This document shows, in pieces, positions 9,351 through 17,564 of a stretch of 38,909 nucleotides of DNA; positions within the stretch are counted from its first letter, which is position 1; each line of letters starts with the position of its first letter. A program made the position numbers and the translations under genes. Source of the DNA: Anaeroplasma sp. (GTDB taxonomy: Bacteria > Bacillota_I > Bacilli_A > Acholeplasmatales > Anaeroplasmataceae). Below the pieces are notes generated by a model. It had not been told where the DNA came from, did not search any database, and saw nothing but the letters and a program-made list of their open reading frames with translations. The DNA lies in NCBI GenBank assembly GCA_022768655.1, contig JALEQD010000100.1:1-38909 (forward strand), read 5' to 3'.

Positions 9351-11069
9351 ATGATTGAATTTAAGAATATCAAATCAGTTGATGAAAATATATCAAGGCT
9401 TAATAAAATAACTAAAGCTATTTCAATAATAAGATTAATTTTAGCTTTATCTTTATTAACATTTTTAATATGTTTATTTTCACTTCAAGAAACAGCTTTA
9501 TATTCAGCTTTATCTATTTCTGTATTTATTTTATTTATTATTTTTATTTTATTTACAAATAAATATTTTAAAAGACTTGAGCATTTTAAGAATAAAAAGG
9601 AAGTTTATGAATCACATAATAGAAGAAGAAATTTAAATTTTAATAAAATGTATGATTTAGGTGAAGACTTTATCACTAAGGATGATTATAAATTATTAGA
9701 TTTAGATATCTTTGGCCCAAAATCCTTATTCCAATATTTATCAGTATGTAAAACTAAAAATGGTAGGTCTAAGCTTGCTAAAAGATTATCATCAATTCAT
9801 CAAAGTGAAAATATTAATTTAGAAAGAGAAGCAGTTTTTGAGCTTGCAGAAAGAGAAGATACTTTAGATATAGAAGCAAGCTTTAAAGAATTTTCAAATG
9901 ATGCAAAAACATTAAATTATGATGAATTTTTATCTGTAACAAAATCTAAAATAGCTGTTAAGCCATTGTTTTTTATCCCTTTAATTTCATTTTTAGGAAT
10001 GATTACTTATTTAATATTAGTATTTACTATAAATATTAATCCATTACCTTTAATTGCATTCTTACTTCTTAATTTTATTGCTTGCAAATATTGTTTGAAT
10101 AATGATGTATTTTTATTAAATTCAATCAAATATTATCATATCAGCAGTGCATATTTAGAAATAGCAGATATAATAAAAAGTATAAAATATCAAAATGTAT
10201 ATCTAAATCAGCTACAATCAAATATTTCTAAATATTATGAACCATTAAAAAAATTAAATAAAATATATCTTGCCTTATCAACAAGAAATAATATTATTGC
10301 GAAAATAATATTAAATTCATTATTTATTTATGATTTATATTTAATTTTTATTTTCAATAAATTACATGAAAAAATTATTGATTTAGAAATTTTATTTGAT
10401 TCAATTTCTGAATTTGAAGTTTTAATTTCTCTCGCAAATATTGGTCTTGATAATGATGTATATTCTATTCCTACATTTAGTGATAATATTATCGCAAAGA
10501 ATATGAAGCATCCATTATTAAAGGATTGTGTAGATAATGATTTTACATTATCTGGTGGGGTTGTTTTAACAGGCAGTAATATGTCAGGTAAAACTACATT
10601 CATGAGAACCTTAGGCATCAATCAAATATTATTTAATGCAGGTGGTATTACTCTTTCTAAGAGCTTTAGCTCAAGCTATTTACCAATTTATACATCATTA
10701 CGAGCAAATGATTTATTAAGTGAAGGTATTTCAACCTTCTATGCTGAAATTCTTAGAATGAAAACTATAAATAATGCTATAAAAGAAAATAAATGCTTAA
10801 TATTAATTGATGAAATATTTAAAGGTACTAATGCTTATGAAAGAATTAATGCATCGTTTAAGGTCATTGATAAATTAAATAGCTATAATGCATATTTTAT
10901 TATTAGTACACATGATTTTGAATTATGTGATGCAAATAATATTTTAAATTATCATTTTAATGAAGAATATAATGATGATAAAATTTCATTTGATTATAAA
11001 ATAAAAGAAGGTAAGTGCACCTCTAAAAATGCACTTTACCTTCTAAAAATGACAGGAATAATTGAATAA
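9351..11069 (+). CDS. Membrane-associated MutS-family ATPase (not canonical MutS)
   Basis: 572 aa; MutS Walker A (TGSNMSGKTTFMRTLGIN), Walker B (CLILIDEIFKGTN) and ISTHDFEL; two hydrophobic stretches near the N-terminus and two more mid-protein; no MutS mismatch-recognition domain evident. Confidence 0.85.
   Translation: MIEFKNIKSVDENISRLNKITKAISIIRLILALSLLTFLICLFSLQETALYSALSISVFILFIIFILFTNKYFKRLEHFKNKKEVYESHNRRRNLNFNKMYDLGEDFITKDDYKLLDLDIFGPKSLFQYLSVCKTKNGRSKLAKRLSSIHQSENINLEREAVFELAEREDTLDIEASFKEFSNDAKTLNYDEFLSVTKSKIAVKPLFFIPLISFLGMITYLILVFTININPLPLIAFLLLNFIACKYCLNNDVFLLNSIKYYHISSAYLEIADIIKSIKYQNVYLNQLQSNISKYYEPLKKLNKIYLALSTRNNIIAKIILNSLFIYDLYLIFIFNKLHEKIIDLEILFDSISEFEVLISLANIGLDNDVYSIPTFSDNIIAKNMKHPLLKDCVDNDFTLSGGVVLTGSNMSGKTTFMRTLGINQILFNAGGITLSKSFSSSYLPIYTSLRANDLLSEGISTFYAEILRMKTINNAIKENKCLILIDEIFKGTNAYERINASFKVIDKLNSYNAYFIISTHDFELCDANNILNYHFNEEYNDDKISFDYKIKEGKCTSKNALYLLKMTGIIE
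10995..11043 (-). terminator. Intrinsic terminator for the minus-strand gene, embedded in the 3' coding end of the opposing MutS-family gene
   Basis: Minus strand reads GAAGGTAAAGTGCA-loop-TGCACTTACCTTC followed by TTTTATTTTATA; no T-tract on the plus strand. Confidence 0.7.
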
Positions 11070-11962: not shown

Positions 11963-12913
11963 ATGTTTTTATTTAAAATTTGGATATTTAATATTGACTT
12001 TTCAACTGTCGTAAGCTTTTTGATTGGTATACTTATTGGGGCAGTAATTATTTGTATGATATATGCCCTAATTGTTTTATCATCCCTTCGAAACAAAAAG
12101 TTTTTAATTAAGGTAGAGGATGATAGCTTAACCTCAACCGAGGTTAAGGATATGATTGTACAAGCTCAAAAATCCTTTAAGGATAAGGATTTGCGTGGTG
12201 AACTATCAAGGGTTAATCATTGTAAAAATATTTCAATGGATTTAGTATACGGTATTGCATCTAGGTTTTTTCCTAAAAGTAAGCATCCTTTGCTTGAAAT
12301 CTCAATAGATGAGGTAATGATGCTTTCTTTATACGTTAAAACAAGAATAGAGGATATATTAAATAGAAGAGGTATTAGACTTTTAAAAAAAATAAAAATT
12401 GGTCAAATATTTGATGTAACTCAAAAAACAACAAAGGTTGTTAATTCAAAGGCCTTTAAGGTTACAAAAGATGTTAATAATACATTTAATACCATAAAAA
12501 AAATAGTTAATGTTGTTAATCCTGCTTGGTGGGTAAGAAAATTGATAATTGATAATACTATAAATGTTATTACTGATAAGCTTTGTGTTGTTATTATTGC
12601 GATTGTTGGTGAGGAAACATACAAAATTTATAGTAAAACAGTATTTAATCAGGATGTTGAAATTGAAAGTAATGTTGATGATATCATAAATTCTATGAAT
12701 AATGATATATTAAAAGCTAATGATGATATCATTAATTCAAATGATAATTCAGATAATTTGAATTCTGATTTTTCAATTCCAGTAAAAAATGATGAAAAGA
12801 TGTTTAAAACAAGAACATTAAAGCTAGAAAAGCATATAGATTATATTTCAATATTTAATCCTAATTATCCAATGCTTTTGCATGATGAAGAAAAGAAAGT
12901 GGAGTTAAATTAA
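11963..12913 (+). CDS. Uncharacterised membrane protein upstream of FtsK
   Basis: 316 aa; strong N-terminal TM (VSFLIGILIGAVIICMIYALIVL), second hydrophobic segment (LCVVIIAIVG), acidic Asn/Asp-rich C-terminus. No family confidently recognised. Confidence 0.7.
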   Translation: MFLFKIWIFNIDFSTVVSFLIGILIGAVIICMIYALIVLSSLRNKKFLIKVEDDSLTSTEVKDMIVQAQKSFKDKDLRGELSRVNHCKNISMDLVYGIASRFFPKSKHPLLEISIDEVMMLSLYVKTRIEDILNRRGIRLLKKIKIGQIFDVTQKTTKVVNSKAFKVTKDVNNTFNTIKKIVNVVNPAWWVRKLIIDNTINVITDKLCVVIIAIVGEETYKIYSKTVFNQDVEIESNVDDIINSMNNDILKANDDIINSNDNSDNLNSDFSIPVKNDEKMFKTRTLKLEKHIDYISIFNPNYPMLLHDEEKKVELN

Positions 12914-12915
12914 TT

Positions 12916-15198
12916 ATGAAAAAGAAAAAAGATATATATATTGAGGAAGAAGAAAAGTTAATAATTTATCAAATTGATTATGGTACATCAGGATTAATTA
13001 GAAAAAAAGATGGCTTCCATAAAAGTGAGGTTTGTTCTCCATTTCATGGAACTAATGTTCTTGATAGAAATCATTTTTTAGATAATAGTGGTACAGTTGA
13101 TATTGATTATGGATATGATTTTATTAGAGAAGAAAAGCATATATCTGATGAAGAGCTTGAAAAAAGACATGGTACTAAATATTATGAATTTACTTTTTTG
13201 AATAGTGAAGATGATCTATATAAGGGTTCTGATTATTCTAAAGAAAAACCAAAAGAAAAGCAAGATGATACTAAGAGAATTGATTCTTCATTTATATCAT
13301 CAATTGATGATATTTTAGAAGAAGATACAAAGCCAGTAATTACTGATGAAATGGTTAATGATAAAATTAATGATGATTTTGATAATGAGGAAGCTGAATT
13401 TAAAATTAAATTTGAAATTGATGAAGATGAGCCTACTTATGAATACAATTCATTTGATAAAAATATGCCAAAGCCTAATCAAGCAAATATTCCAAGCTTT
13501 TTAACATCAAATTCTAATAATAAAAACAATGATGTTGAGATAAATGAAGAGTTTTCATATAGTGAGGATAAAGAAATTACTATTGATGCAGATGAATATG
13601 AAAATCCTGCAGTAGATAAATCTCTTACAATTGAAGAGGCTATATTAAATATGCAAAAGGGTAATATTAGCGATAATTCTTCTAATACACCTAAATATAA
13701 GGCTAATTTAGAAACAAAGCCTGAAATTAGTAAAACTAGGGATTATTCAAATTATCATATTCCTTATGAGGATTTCTTTAAAAAATCAAAATCTACATCA
13801 TTAGAAGCACCTATTTGGCTTGAGGAAAAGAAAGAAATAATAAATCAATCCTTAAAATCATTTGGTATTGAAGGAGAAGTTATTACATATACTAAAGGAC
13901 CTGCCTTTACTAGATATGAAATAATGCTTGCTCCTGGTGTAAATGTTAAAAAGGTAAGCCAAATATATGATAATCTTCAAAAGGATTTACAAGCTAAATC
14001 CTTACGTTTACAAGCTCCTATTCCTGGTAAAAATACGATTGGTATAGAGGTTCCTAATGATGTTAGTGAGGTTGTAAGCTTTGGTGATATTCTTAATGAG
14101 GAGTTTATTCATGATGGCAAGCCATTAAGAGTTGCTATGGGTAAAAATATCGATGGTACACCAGTATACCAAAATATAACAGATATGCCACATGCATTAA
14201 TTGCTGGTGCTACGCAATCAGGTAAGTCTGTTTCTATTAATACTATTTTAGTTTCATTACTTGTAAAAAATTCACCTGATAATTTAAAGCTTATTCTAGT
14301 TGACCCAAAGAAGGTAGAATTATCATTCTACAATGATTTACCACATCTTGCTACACCTGTTATTGATGATGCAGTAATCGCTACTGAGGCATTAAAATGG
14401 GCAGTAAGAGAAATGGAAAGAAGATACGATGTTTTAGCTAGGAATAGAGTTAGAAATATTGGAGATTATAATAAAAAGAGAGCAAATAATCCAGAAATGG
14501 AAAAAATGCCTTTTATTGTAATCGTTGTAGATGAATTTAATGATATGGTTATGCAATGTGGTGTAGATGCAAATGAAGCTATTATTCGTCTTGCTCAAAA
14601 GGCTAGAGCCTGTGGTATTCATATTATTCTTGCAACACAAAGACCTACTGCTGATGTTGTAAATGGTACAATTAAAGCAAATATCACATGTCGTATTGCA
14701 TTTAGAGTTGCTGCTAACTTAGATTCTAGAATTATTCTTGATGAAGATGGTGCAGAAAATCTACTTGGTCGTGGTGATATGATTATAAAAAATAATTCAA
14801 CACCTGTTCGTGCTCAAGGAGCATACATATCAGATGATGAAATTGATACAGTATGTCAATATATTTGTGAACGATATGAACCTGATTTCTTGTTTACACA
14901 TGAAGATTTAAAGCGTGAGCTAAATAAGGCTAATGGTAATAATAATTCATCCTTTGGTAAAGAATCATCAAGTGAATCAGAGGAGTTATTATATCAAATA
15001 GCTTTAGCCTGTGTTCAACAAGGAACATGCTCAATTAATTCTATTCAAACTGGTTTTGGATTAGGCTTTAATAGAGCACAAAGAATTGTACAAATATTAG
15101 AGGATAGAGAAATAGTATCACCAAAAAATGGTACAAAAGGTAGAGAAATTTTAGTTGATTCATATAAATTAAGAGAAATGTTTGGAATTGATGATTAA
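12916..15198 (+). CDS. ftsK: FtsK/SpoIIIE-family DNA translocase lacking N-terminal TM segments
   Basis: Walker A GATQSGKS, Walker B VIVVDEFND, ILATQRPTADVVNGTIKANI, LLGRGDM, C-terminal gamma-like winged helix (QTGFGLGFNRAQRIVQILEDREIVSP). Confidence 0.9.
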   Translation: MKKKKDIYIEEEEKLIIYQIDYGTSGLIRKKDGFHKSEVCSPFHGTNVLDRNHFLDNSGTVDIDYGYDFIREEKHISDEELEKRHGTKYYEFTFLNSEDDLYKGSDYSKEKPKEKQDDTKRIDSSFISSIDDILEEDTKPVITDEMVNDKINDDFDNEEAEFKIKFEIDEDEPTYEYNSFDKNMPKPNQANIPSFLTSNSNNKNNDVEINEEFSYSEDKEITIDADEYENPAVDKSLTIEEAILNMQKGNISDNSSNTPKYKANLETKPEISKTRDYSNYHIPYEDFFKKSKSTSLEAPIWLEEKKEIINQSLKSFGIEGEVITYTKGPAFTRYEIMLAPGVNVKKVSQIYDNLQKDLQAKSLRLQAPIPGKNTIGIEVPNDVSEVVSFGDILNEEFIHDGKPLRVAMGKNIDGTPVYQNITDMPHALIAGATQSGKSVSINTILVSLLVKNSPDNLKLILVDPKKVELSFYNDLPHLATPVIDDAVIATEALKWAVREMERRYDVLARNRVRNIGDYNKKRANNPEMEKMPFIVIVVDEFNDMVMQCGVDANEAIIRLAQKARACGIHIILATQRPTADVVNGTIKANITCRIAFRVAANLDSRIILDEDGAENLLGRGDMIIKNNSTPVRAQGAYISDDEIDTVCQYICERYEPDFLFTHEDLKRELNKANGNNNSSFGKESSSESEELLYQIALACVQQGTCSINSIQTGFGLGFNRAQRIVQILEDREIVSPKNGTKGREILVDSYKLREMFGIDD

Positions 15199-16034
15199 TG
15201 AAAAATGATAATGATATTGAAGATATATTAAATTTAGAAGAACATAGTGAAGATGATGAAAAAACTATAAAAAAAGAATTGTTTATTAAAAAAATTATCC
15301 AATTCGTGATTATATTTTTATTGTTTGTTTTTTCAATTATTTTCAATAAAAGAATAACAGTTTTTTCTATTATGTTTTTTGGAAATAAAATAATTGGGAA
15401 TATTTTATATTACACATTTATTTCAATCGAATTTATTATATTAACAGGCTATTTGCTGTTTTTTATCTTAAAAATAAAGAATAAAATAAATTATAAATTA
15501 TTACATAAATTTCATAAAATATTTGATTTGCCACAATTTATTTTGGCTGCAGCAATTACAATATTATTTTTTATGGTATTTATTACTACCCCCTTTACAG
15601 TTTCTGGTGATTCAATGAATTATACATTAACTGATGGTGATAGGGTTATTTGTACTGATTTATTTTATAAGCCCAAAAAGGAAGATATTGTAGTTTTTGA
15701 TGCTTATAATTATACTGAGCAATCATTATTATACATAAAAAGAGTAGTAGCGGTTGAAGGAGATGTATTGTCATATAAGGATGGTGCATTATTAGTTAAT
15801 AATGAGCATGTTGAATATGTAAGTTCAAGACAATATTTAAAAATAATTGGTAGAACAAGTGATAGATATTTAGATGATTTTACTGTTCAAAAGGGATATG
15901 TTGTTGTTTTAGGTGATAATCGCTTAGAATCATATGATTCAAGATATTTTGGAATGGTTAATGAAAAAGATATTTTAGGTCATGTATTATTTAGATTATA
16001 TCCATTTAAAAAGATTGAAAAAATATTAGGTTAG
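15198..16034 (+). CDS. lepB: Signal peptidase I (S26)
   Basis: SGDSMNYTL (Ser), YIKRVVAVEGD (Lys), VVLGDNRLESYDSRYFG boxes; N-terminal TM segments. Confidence 0.9.
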   Translation: MKNDNDIEDILNLEEHSEDDEKTIKKELFIKKIIQFVIIFLLFVFSIIFNKRITVFSIMFFGNKIIGNILYYTFISIEFIILTGYLLFFILKIKNKINYKLLHKFHKIFDLPQFILAAAITILFFMVFITTPFTVSGDSMNYTLTDGDRVICTDLFYKPKKEDIVVFDAYNYTEQSLLYIKRVVAVEGDVLSYKDGALLVNNEHVEYVSSRQYLKIIGRTSDRYLDDFTVQKGYVVVLGDNRLESYDSRYFGMVNEKDILGHVLFRLYPFKKIEKILG

Positions 16035-16051: not shown

Positions 16052-16921
16052 ATGAATGATAATATTTCAATTATCAACTGGTTTCCTGGGCATATGGCCA
16101 AGGCAAAAAGAGAAATAATTGAAAAAATTAAAATGGTTGATTTAGTTATAGAATTAAAGGATGCAAGAATACCATATTCTTCATCTAATCCTATGATTAA
16201 AGAAATTATTGGTAATAAACCAAGATTAATATTACTATGTAAATCTAGCATCGCAGATCCAAAGGTTACTGCATTATGGATGAATTATTATGCAAGTCAA
16301 AATATTTTAGCCTTAGATATTGATTCTATTACAAATTATCATACTAGTAGTATTATAAAATATGCTAAAATGGCTTTAAAGGAAACATTTGAAAAAAGAA
16401 AAGCAAAGGGTGTTTTATCTGAACAGATTAAAGCTATTATTTTAGGTATTCCTAATGTAGGAAAATCTACATTAATTAATACACTTGCAAAAAGAAAGGC
16501 AACTCAGGTAGGAGATAGACCTGGTGTAACAAAAAATCAAACTTGGATTAAAATTACACCTGATTTATTGCTTCTTGATACGCCTGGTATTTTGTGGCCT
16601 AAATTTGAAGATCAGGCTGTTGGAGTAAAGCTTGCAATGTGTGGTAGTATCAAAGATGAAATATTAAATTTAGAAGAAATATCAGCTAAAGCAATTGAGT
16701 ATATAGGTGCTAATTATCCTGATTATTTAAAAAATAGGTATAATTTAGATGAAATTTTTGAAGATCCGTATGTAAATTTAGAAAATATTGCAATTAAACG
16801 TGGATTTTTGTTAAAGGGTGGTATACCTGATATTAATAAAGTATGTATTATTTTTCTTAATGAGCTAAGAGGAAATAAGATTGGAGCAATGAGTTATGAG
16901 CGACCAAGTGAGATTGAATGA
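16052..16921 (+). CDS. rbgA: Ribosome biogenesis GTPase RbgA/YlqF (circularly permuted)
   Basis: NWFPGHMAKAKREI start; GIPNVGKSTLINTL after the G4-like region; DTPGILWPKF. Confidence 0.93.
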   Translation: MNDNISIINWFPGHMAKAKREIIEKIKMVDLVIELKDARIPYSSSNPMIKEIIGNKPRLILLCKSSIADPKVTALWMNYYASQNILALDIDSITNYHTSSIIKYAKMALKETFEKRKAKGVLSEQIKAIILGIPNVGKSTLINTLAKRKATQVGDRPGVTKNQTWIKITPDLLLLDTPGILWPKFEDQAVGVKLAMCGSIKDEILNLEEISAKAIEYIGANYPDYLKNRYNLDEIFEDPYVNLENIAIKRGFLLKGGIPDINKVCIIFLNELRGNKIGAMSYERPSEIE

Positions 16922-17564
16922 AACAAATGATATATATTCATATGAAGAACAATTATATGATAGTGGAGATCGTGTAATTTGTGGTATTGATGAGGCGGGA
17001 AGAGGACCTCTTGCTGGACCTGTTGTTGTTGCTTCTTGTATATTACCGCCATTTTTAAGAATTAAAGGCTTAAATGATTCAAAAAAGCTTACAGCTAAAA
17101 AAAGAGAAGAATTATATAAAATAATAATAAAAGAAGCTATAGAATATAAGATTGTTTTTGTATCTGTTGAAGAGGTTGACGAATTAAATATATATCAAGC
17201 AACTAAAAAAGGTATGTTAAAGTCAGTTGAAGAACTAAGCACAAAGCCTGATCATGTATTAATAGATGCTATGCCACTAAATGAATTAGAGATGAAGCAT
17301 ACATCAATAATTCATGGTGATGCAAGATGTGCATCTATTGCGGCAGCATCAATTATTGCTAAGGTAACAAGAGACCAATATATGGAAAAAATGGATTTAA
17401 AGTATCCAAATTATGGTTTTAAAAAACATAAAGGATATGGTACAAAAATGCATATTGAAGCTTTGGAAAAATATGGTCCATGTAAGATTCATAGAAAAAC
17501 ATATTATCCAGTTTCAAAGTATTTTTCAAAACAATTAAGCTTATTTGATGATGAAAATGAATAA
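16896..17564 (+). CDS. rnhB: Ribonuclease HII
   Basis: CGIDEAGRGPLAGPVVVASCIL, NDSKKLTAKKRE, AASIIAKVTRD; overlaps rbgA by 26 nt. Confidence 0.95.
   Translation: MSDQVRLNETNDIYSYEEQLYDSGDRVICGIDEAGRGPLAGPVVVASCILPPFLRIKGLNDSKKLTAKKREELYKIIIKEAIEYKIVFVSVEEVDELNIYQATKKGMLKSVEELSTKPDHVLIDAMPLNELEMKHTSIIHGDARCASIAAASIIAKVTRDQYMEKMDLKYPNYGFKKHKGYGTKMHIEALEKYGPCKIHRKTYYPVSKYFSKQLSLFDDENE

Follow-up and report, generated by a model that had tools for sequence, protein, structure and literature searches.

SftA (YtpS) is an FtsK-type DNA translocase that has been studied in Bacillus subtilis, where a membrane-anchored FtsK (SpoIIIE) and FtsA also occur. SftA carries no transmembrane (TM) domain, and the FtsZ ring brings it to the septum (PMC5357621). 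Its binding to the Z-ring is supported by SepF and FtsA (PMC11790237). Here we compare this system with a locus from Anaeroplasma sp., found in a stretch of 38,909 nucleotides that we refer to as the window. In this locus an ftsK gene (12916..15198, forward strand) follows, after a gap of 2 bp (12914..12915), a gene on the same strand for a membrane protein of an unnamed family (11963..12913), here called the partner.

The SftA-type motor

The ftsK gene encodes a protein of 760 aa, in which Pfam places an FtsK alpha domain (aa 283-381; 13762..14058), a motor domain (aa 395-577; 14098..14646) and a DNA-reading gamma domain (aa 687-747; 14974..15156). The motor and gamma domains, and with them a probable role in DNA pumping, are shared with the four-TM FtsK/SpoIIIE proteins; the window protein differs from these in having no TM helix and in lying on a separate branch of the tree. 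Its hydropathy maximum, taken over the whole protein as a 19-residue Kyte-Doolittle mean, is 1.21, while nearly all TM-type FtsK proteins have three to five hydropathy peaks. The TM domain was judged by hydropathy, as Pfam listed none even for the Listeria SpoIIIE. An earlier sequence-only reading had described a TM-less FtsK with a membrane-protein gene 2 bp upstream, and both parts of that description are borne out, the N-terminal TM domain that marks membrane-type FtsK/SpoIIIE being absent here. That reading had also proposed a search for a second, TM-containing FtsK. In the Anaeroplasma genome, which is 94.6% complete and in 228 contigs, the ftsK of the window is the one match to PF01580, and two relatives assembled into one contig each (G049 and G054) likewise have a single match apiece. 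Matches resembling the FtsK gamma domain do occur in short ORFs without a motor, e.g. L294:2562-3302 (G015), with similar ones in G009, G013, G024 and G025.

To place the motor we built trees from the TM-less and TM-type FtsK proteins of the whole group and named references from Listeria, Anoxybacillus, Rossellomorea, Bacillus velezensis and Acinetobacter; these were quick searches, with branch support given as SH-aLRT. Without an outgroup, the TM-less proteins, including the window motor, cluster apart from the TM-type ones with a support of 99. When an outgroup is included, the side that holds SpoIIIE and the TM-type proteins has a support of 97, and the proteins of the Listeria and Anoxybacillus sftA loci group with the TM-less clade at 85, the deepest TM-less branch having only 23. 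SpoIIIE is placed in the TM clade. The genomes of family f15 hold one SftA-type and one TM-type FtsK each, so the two types are old paralogues. The FtsK of family f8 (L240, L252 and L253), which is probably Spiroplasma and its kin, is TM-less yet nested within the TM-type clade; judging from its position, this is a separate and independent loss of the membrane domain.

Two N-terminal motifs of SftA, F-x-[IF]-P-x-I and SPxxG, can be recognized in the window motor as a module at 12958..13065, which consists of LIIYQI and FHKSEVCSPFHGTNVLD. The first is degenerate (compare FxIPQI or FRFPLI). The second part, FHKSEVCSPFHGTNVLD, compares with FRPTEVPSPVYGY and aligns with RPFRPTEVPSPVYGY of Anoxybacillus as well as with the group-wide F-V-SPIFG-VKD. 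The patch CSPFHGTNVLD had earlier been taken for a possible docking motif. It is instead a family-wide SftA motif (VPSPVYGY in Anoxybacillus), found also in Listeria and Anoxybacillus, where the annotated sftA loci have no such membrane-protein gene upstream. Similarly, the variants of Walker A (GATQSGKS) and Walker B (VVDEFND) that the same reading had pointed out are real, but they are not unusual: most order-level relatives have N, K or Q at the fourth position of GATxSGKS, and DEFND occurs in 28 of 97.

The gene context of sftA is a supporting feature of this type of translocase, not a defining one. In family f12 the sftA gene lies in the order M42 peptidase, DUF84, thioredoxin, SftA, MurC, YtxH and DAHP synthase/chorismate mutase, which matches the annotated sftA loci of Listeria and Anoxybacillus and is that of the Bacillales. 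This thioredoxin-sftA-murC context is absent in the window, where the string is partner-sftA-lepB-ylqF-rnhB; family f16 has the thioredoxin gene. The window motor is like Bacillales SftA in being soluble, in its alpha, motor and gamma domains, in the motifs that correspond to FRFPLI and VPSPVYG, and in its tree grouping. It differs in lacking their hydrophobic, amphipathic-looking start (MNWLKRLIRYFF, MGWFKDFFFG in Bacillales) and in being the only FtsK, in a lineage where FtsA was not found. Given the tree, the motifs, and the TM and copy counts, we are confident that the motor is an FtsK DNA translocase of the soluble SftA type and that it became the sole FtsK of its lineage.

The partner membrane protein and its linkage to sftA

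The partner has 316 aa and is bitopic, as judged from hydropathy, alignment and AlphaFold2 models. It has one strong TM segment (residues 20-38, hydropathy 3.01) in a helix that spans residues 13-43, in which G22 and G26 are invariant in the order. The sequence-only reading was correct about this N-terminal TM, whereas the second hydrophobic segment that it noted is weaker, reaching 1.8-2.1 in about a dozen relatives. This segment sits in one long predicted helix (187-228) that carries the family signature NP-W-RK...GEETYKIYSK, of which NP at 186-187 and EE at 217-218 are invariant in the order and YKIYSK is nearly so. After the TM the protein is predicted by AlphaFold2 to be all-helical, and it ends in a variable acidic tail. 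By the positive-inside rule the topology is probably N-out/C-in, with the C-terminal part in the cytoplasm. No Pfam or NCBIfam family matches the partner, and two AlphaFold2 models (pTM 0.58 and 0.66) gave no fold match in the PDB. Strong sequence matches were found only inside one phylum-level group, and in the phylum search every matching genome among those listed falls in the class of the window itself. In a few genomes a second copy lies near the first (e.g. L079:7443-8165 and L073:10301-11050).

In the window the pair is followed on the same strand by the genes for signal peptidase I (lepB, 15198..16034), the YlqF ribosome-biogenesis GTPase (16052..16921) and RNase HII (rnhB, 16896..17564, the product assigned by reading the sequence). 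Elsewhere in the window, at 9351-11069, lies a gene for a 572-aa protein with MutS domain V and hydrophobic N-terminal segments, likely a membrane-bound relative of MutS.

Co-occurrence in relatives, which had been suggested as a check on the earlier reading, was examined from gene coordinates. FtsK was found in 59 of the 60 relatives and the partner in 53, and in these 53 the partner gene is directly upstream of a TM-less ftsK. Three of them (G006, G014 and G021) span a contig break, with the start of ftsK on the contig of the partner. A further 20 linked loci were seen among those examined from six other families (f7, f9, f16, f19, f23 and f24). A set of 80 named loci had been found via the partner, and as their linkage rate is biased they are left out of the argument. 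The arrangement recurs across the order and is therefore not due to chance. In the relatives, most of the gene pairs overlap or are separated by a few bp. An exception is family f16, where a gap of about 300 bp separates them in five of six loci; in the two loci that were read, a thioredoxin gene fills it (e.g. L198:2091-2420), which is reminiscent of the sftA locus of Bacillales with its thioredoxin gene. Linkage to the partner was seen for none of 33 genes for TM-type FtsK, and the annotated sftA loci of Listeria and Anoxybacillus have no such membrane gene upstream. Because of the 2-bp spacing and the conserved order, the partner gene and sftA are very likely co-transcribed; a promoter scan gave no usable enrichment.

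The partner and SftA also occur apart from each other. The genus g23, with genomes of 0.6-0.9 Mb within the Acholeplasma family, is probably Candidatus Phytoplasma, given its placement, its small genomes and the lack of FtsZ that is reported for phytoplasmas (PMC4221730). All nine of its genomes have the partner, while FtsK and FtsZ were found in none of the nine. In the five loci that were read (L272-L276), the partner gene sits between an elongation-factor-P-like gene and ylqF. In the f21 genome G086 the partner is found together with a TM-type FtsK, and its neighbours in f12 and f21 gave no informative context. Conversely, G011, G023, G063, G084, G094 and family f2 (G036 and G040) have SftA but no detectable partner. 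Some of these are incomplete drafts, and in each the region upstream of ftsK was read and holds another gene. Since each occurs alone, neither protein absolutely needs the other, which contradicts the proposal of an obligate two-component pump, and some use of the partner must be independent of SftA.

The role of the partner

A search for FtsA in 40 genomes bears on what the partner may do. Matches over most of the FtsA model were obtained from representatives of families f10-f15, f17 and f20-f22. These include f12 and f21, in which the partner is unlinked; in the families with FtsA, the partner is either unlinked or absent. No full-length FtsA was found in the representatives of the linked-partner families (f1, f3, f5, f7, f9, f16, f19, f23 and f24), in which the model matched only in part, in ORFs the size of MreB or DnaK, or not at all. 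We infer that the partial matches are MreB and DnaK. SepF was found in all the linked genomes tested; the one representative without a SepF match is G228, a phytoplasma-like genome that also lacks FtsK. FtsZ was found in every non-phytoplasma genome tested. This pattern points to a recruiting role that passed to the partner on the loss of FtsA. Since the linked lineages together make up one clade, the correlation probably reflects a single event and may be a coincidence, and families f9 and f19 also include genomes with neither FtsA nor the partner.

We propose that, where FtsA is missing, the partner tethers SftA to the membrane or recruits it to the septum, and we put the probability of this model as a whole at about 45%. 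Under this proposal, the cytoplasmic helical part of the partner would hold the soluble SftA hexamer beside the closing membrane, doing the job that FtsA supports together with SepF in B. subtilis, in a clade that kept SepF and where FtsA was not found. SftA would then pump the chromosome arms out of the constriction. A wider historical version is rather unlikely. It holds that a large clade, many of whose members lack FtsW, lost FtsA and the membrane FtsK, leaving SftA as the sole translocase, with the partner keeping it at the membrane in the recruiting role of FtsA, and that the phytoplasmas later kept the partner after losing FtsK and FtsZ. We also considered loss of the wall, with FtsW as its marker, as the cause of the pairing. 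This is ruled out, as the pairing is indifferent to FtsW: SftA with a linked partner is found both with and without it. In the window's own genome (G000) there are FtsW/RodA fragments on contigs C180 (L298) and C183 (L299), either a decaying gene or contamination, while A. bactoclasticum (G019), which belongs to the same genus, has none.

The partner could instead have its own envelope or membrane job, unrelated to SftA, and lie beside it only as a part of the preserved string partner-sftA-lepB-ylqF-rnhB. This reading is nearly as likely as the tether. It would account for the partner being retained in phytoplasma-like genomes that lack both FtsK and FtsZ, for its unlinked position in f12 and f21, and for the several genomes that keep SftA without it. 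Moreover, the downstream neighbours are linked nearly as tightly (lepB in 85 of 94 cases, ylqF in 81 of 86 and rnhB in 78 of 83), so linkage alone is weak evidence of function. However, the distances of the partner track those of SftA more closely (partial r 0.64, corrected for YlqF) than those of lepB (0.45) or rnhB (0.16), although this comparison ignores phylogeny and its taxa are not independent. In a bootstrap over taxa the co-variation with SftA exceeded that with lepB in 98% of draws. The linkage also holds across many families, and in f16 despite the intervening thioredoxin gene. A physical pairing of the partner with SftA is plausible.

ZipA and EzrA are single-pass membrane tethers or regulators of FtsZ, with one N-terminal TM helix and a cytoplasmic part, which is helical in EzrA. 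A partner of this kind might replace FtsA mainly as the membrane tether of FtsZ and meet SftA only as a fellow member of the Z-ring, and the linked clade without FtsA does keep FtsZ and SepF. The likeness to ZipA and EzrA extends to the way of working only, i.e. to an N-terminal TM and a cytoplasmic part, which is predicted to be helical in the partner too, whereas the partner matches no known sequence family and no fold in the PDB. For 35 members of the partner family, 25 of the 42 families with weak Pfam matches (E-values of at most 1) were listed, and no EzrA or ZipA profile is among those listed. As phytoplasma-like genomes have the partner without FtsZ, and FtsA and the partner occur together in f12, we consider this role improbable.

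Finally, the sequence-only reading suggested that an ordinary FtsK may have had its TM anchor split off into the upstream gene, as a membrane protein that adjoins a TM-less FtsK in a genome with no other FtsK might suggest; this is largely refuted and highly improbable, since the motor falls with the soluble SftA of Bacillales, apart from TM-type FtsK, and a profile comparison detects no similarity between the TM domain of FtsK and the partner (hhalign probability 0.9%, over one helix only), which has a single strong TM instead of four.

Implications for SftA recruitment

The locus presents a known type of motor, SftA, in an unusual setting, together with a new conserved family of membrane proteins. 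The best-supported role for this family is the tethering of SftA, with an independent membrane function nearly as likely. In the culturable group of Acholeplasma and Anaeroplasma, SftA is the sole FtsK and FtsA was not found, hence the recruitment of SftA must differ there from that described in B. subtilis. Furthermore, because the partner survives in phytoplasma-like genomes without FtsZ and FtsK, it is a candidate for an overlooked basic function in the membrane or in division.
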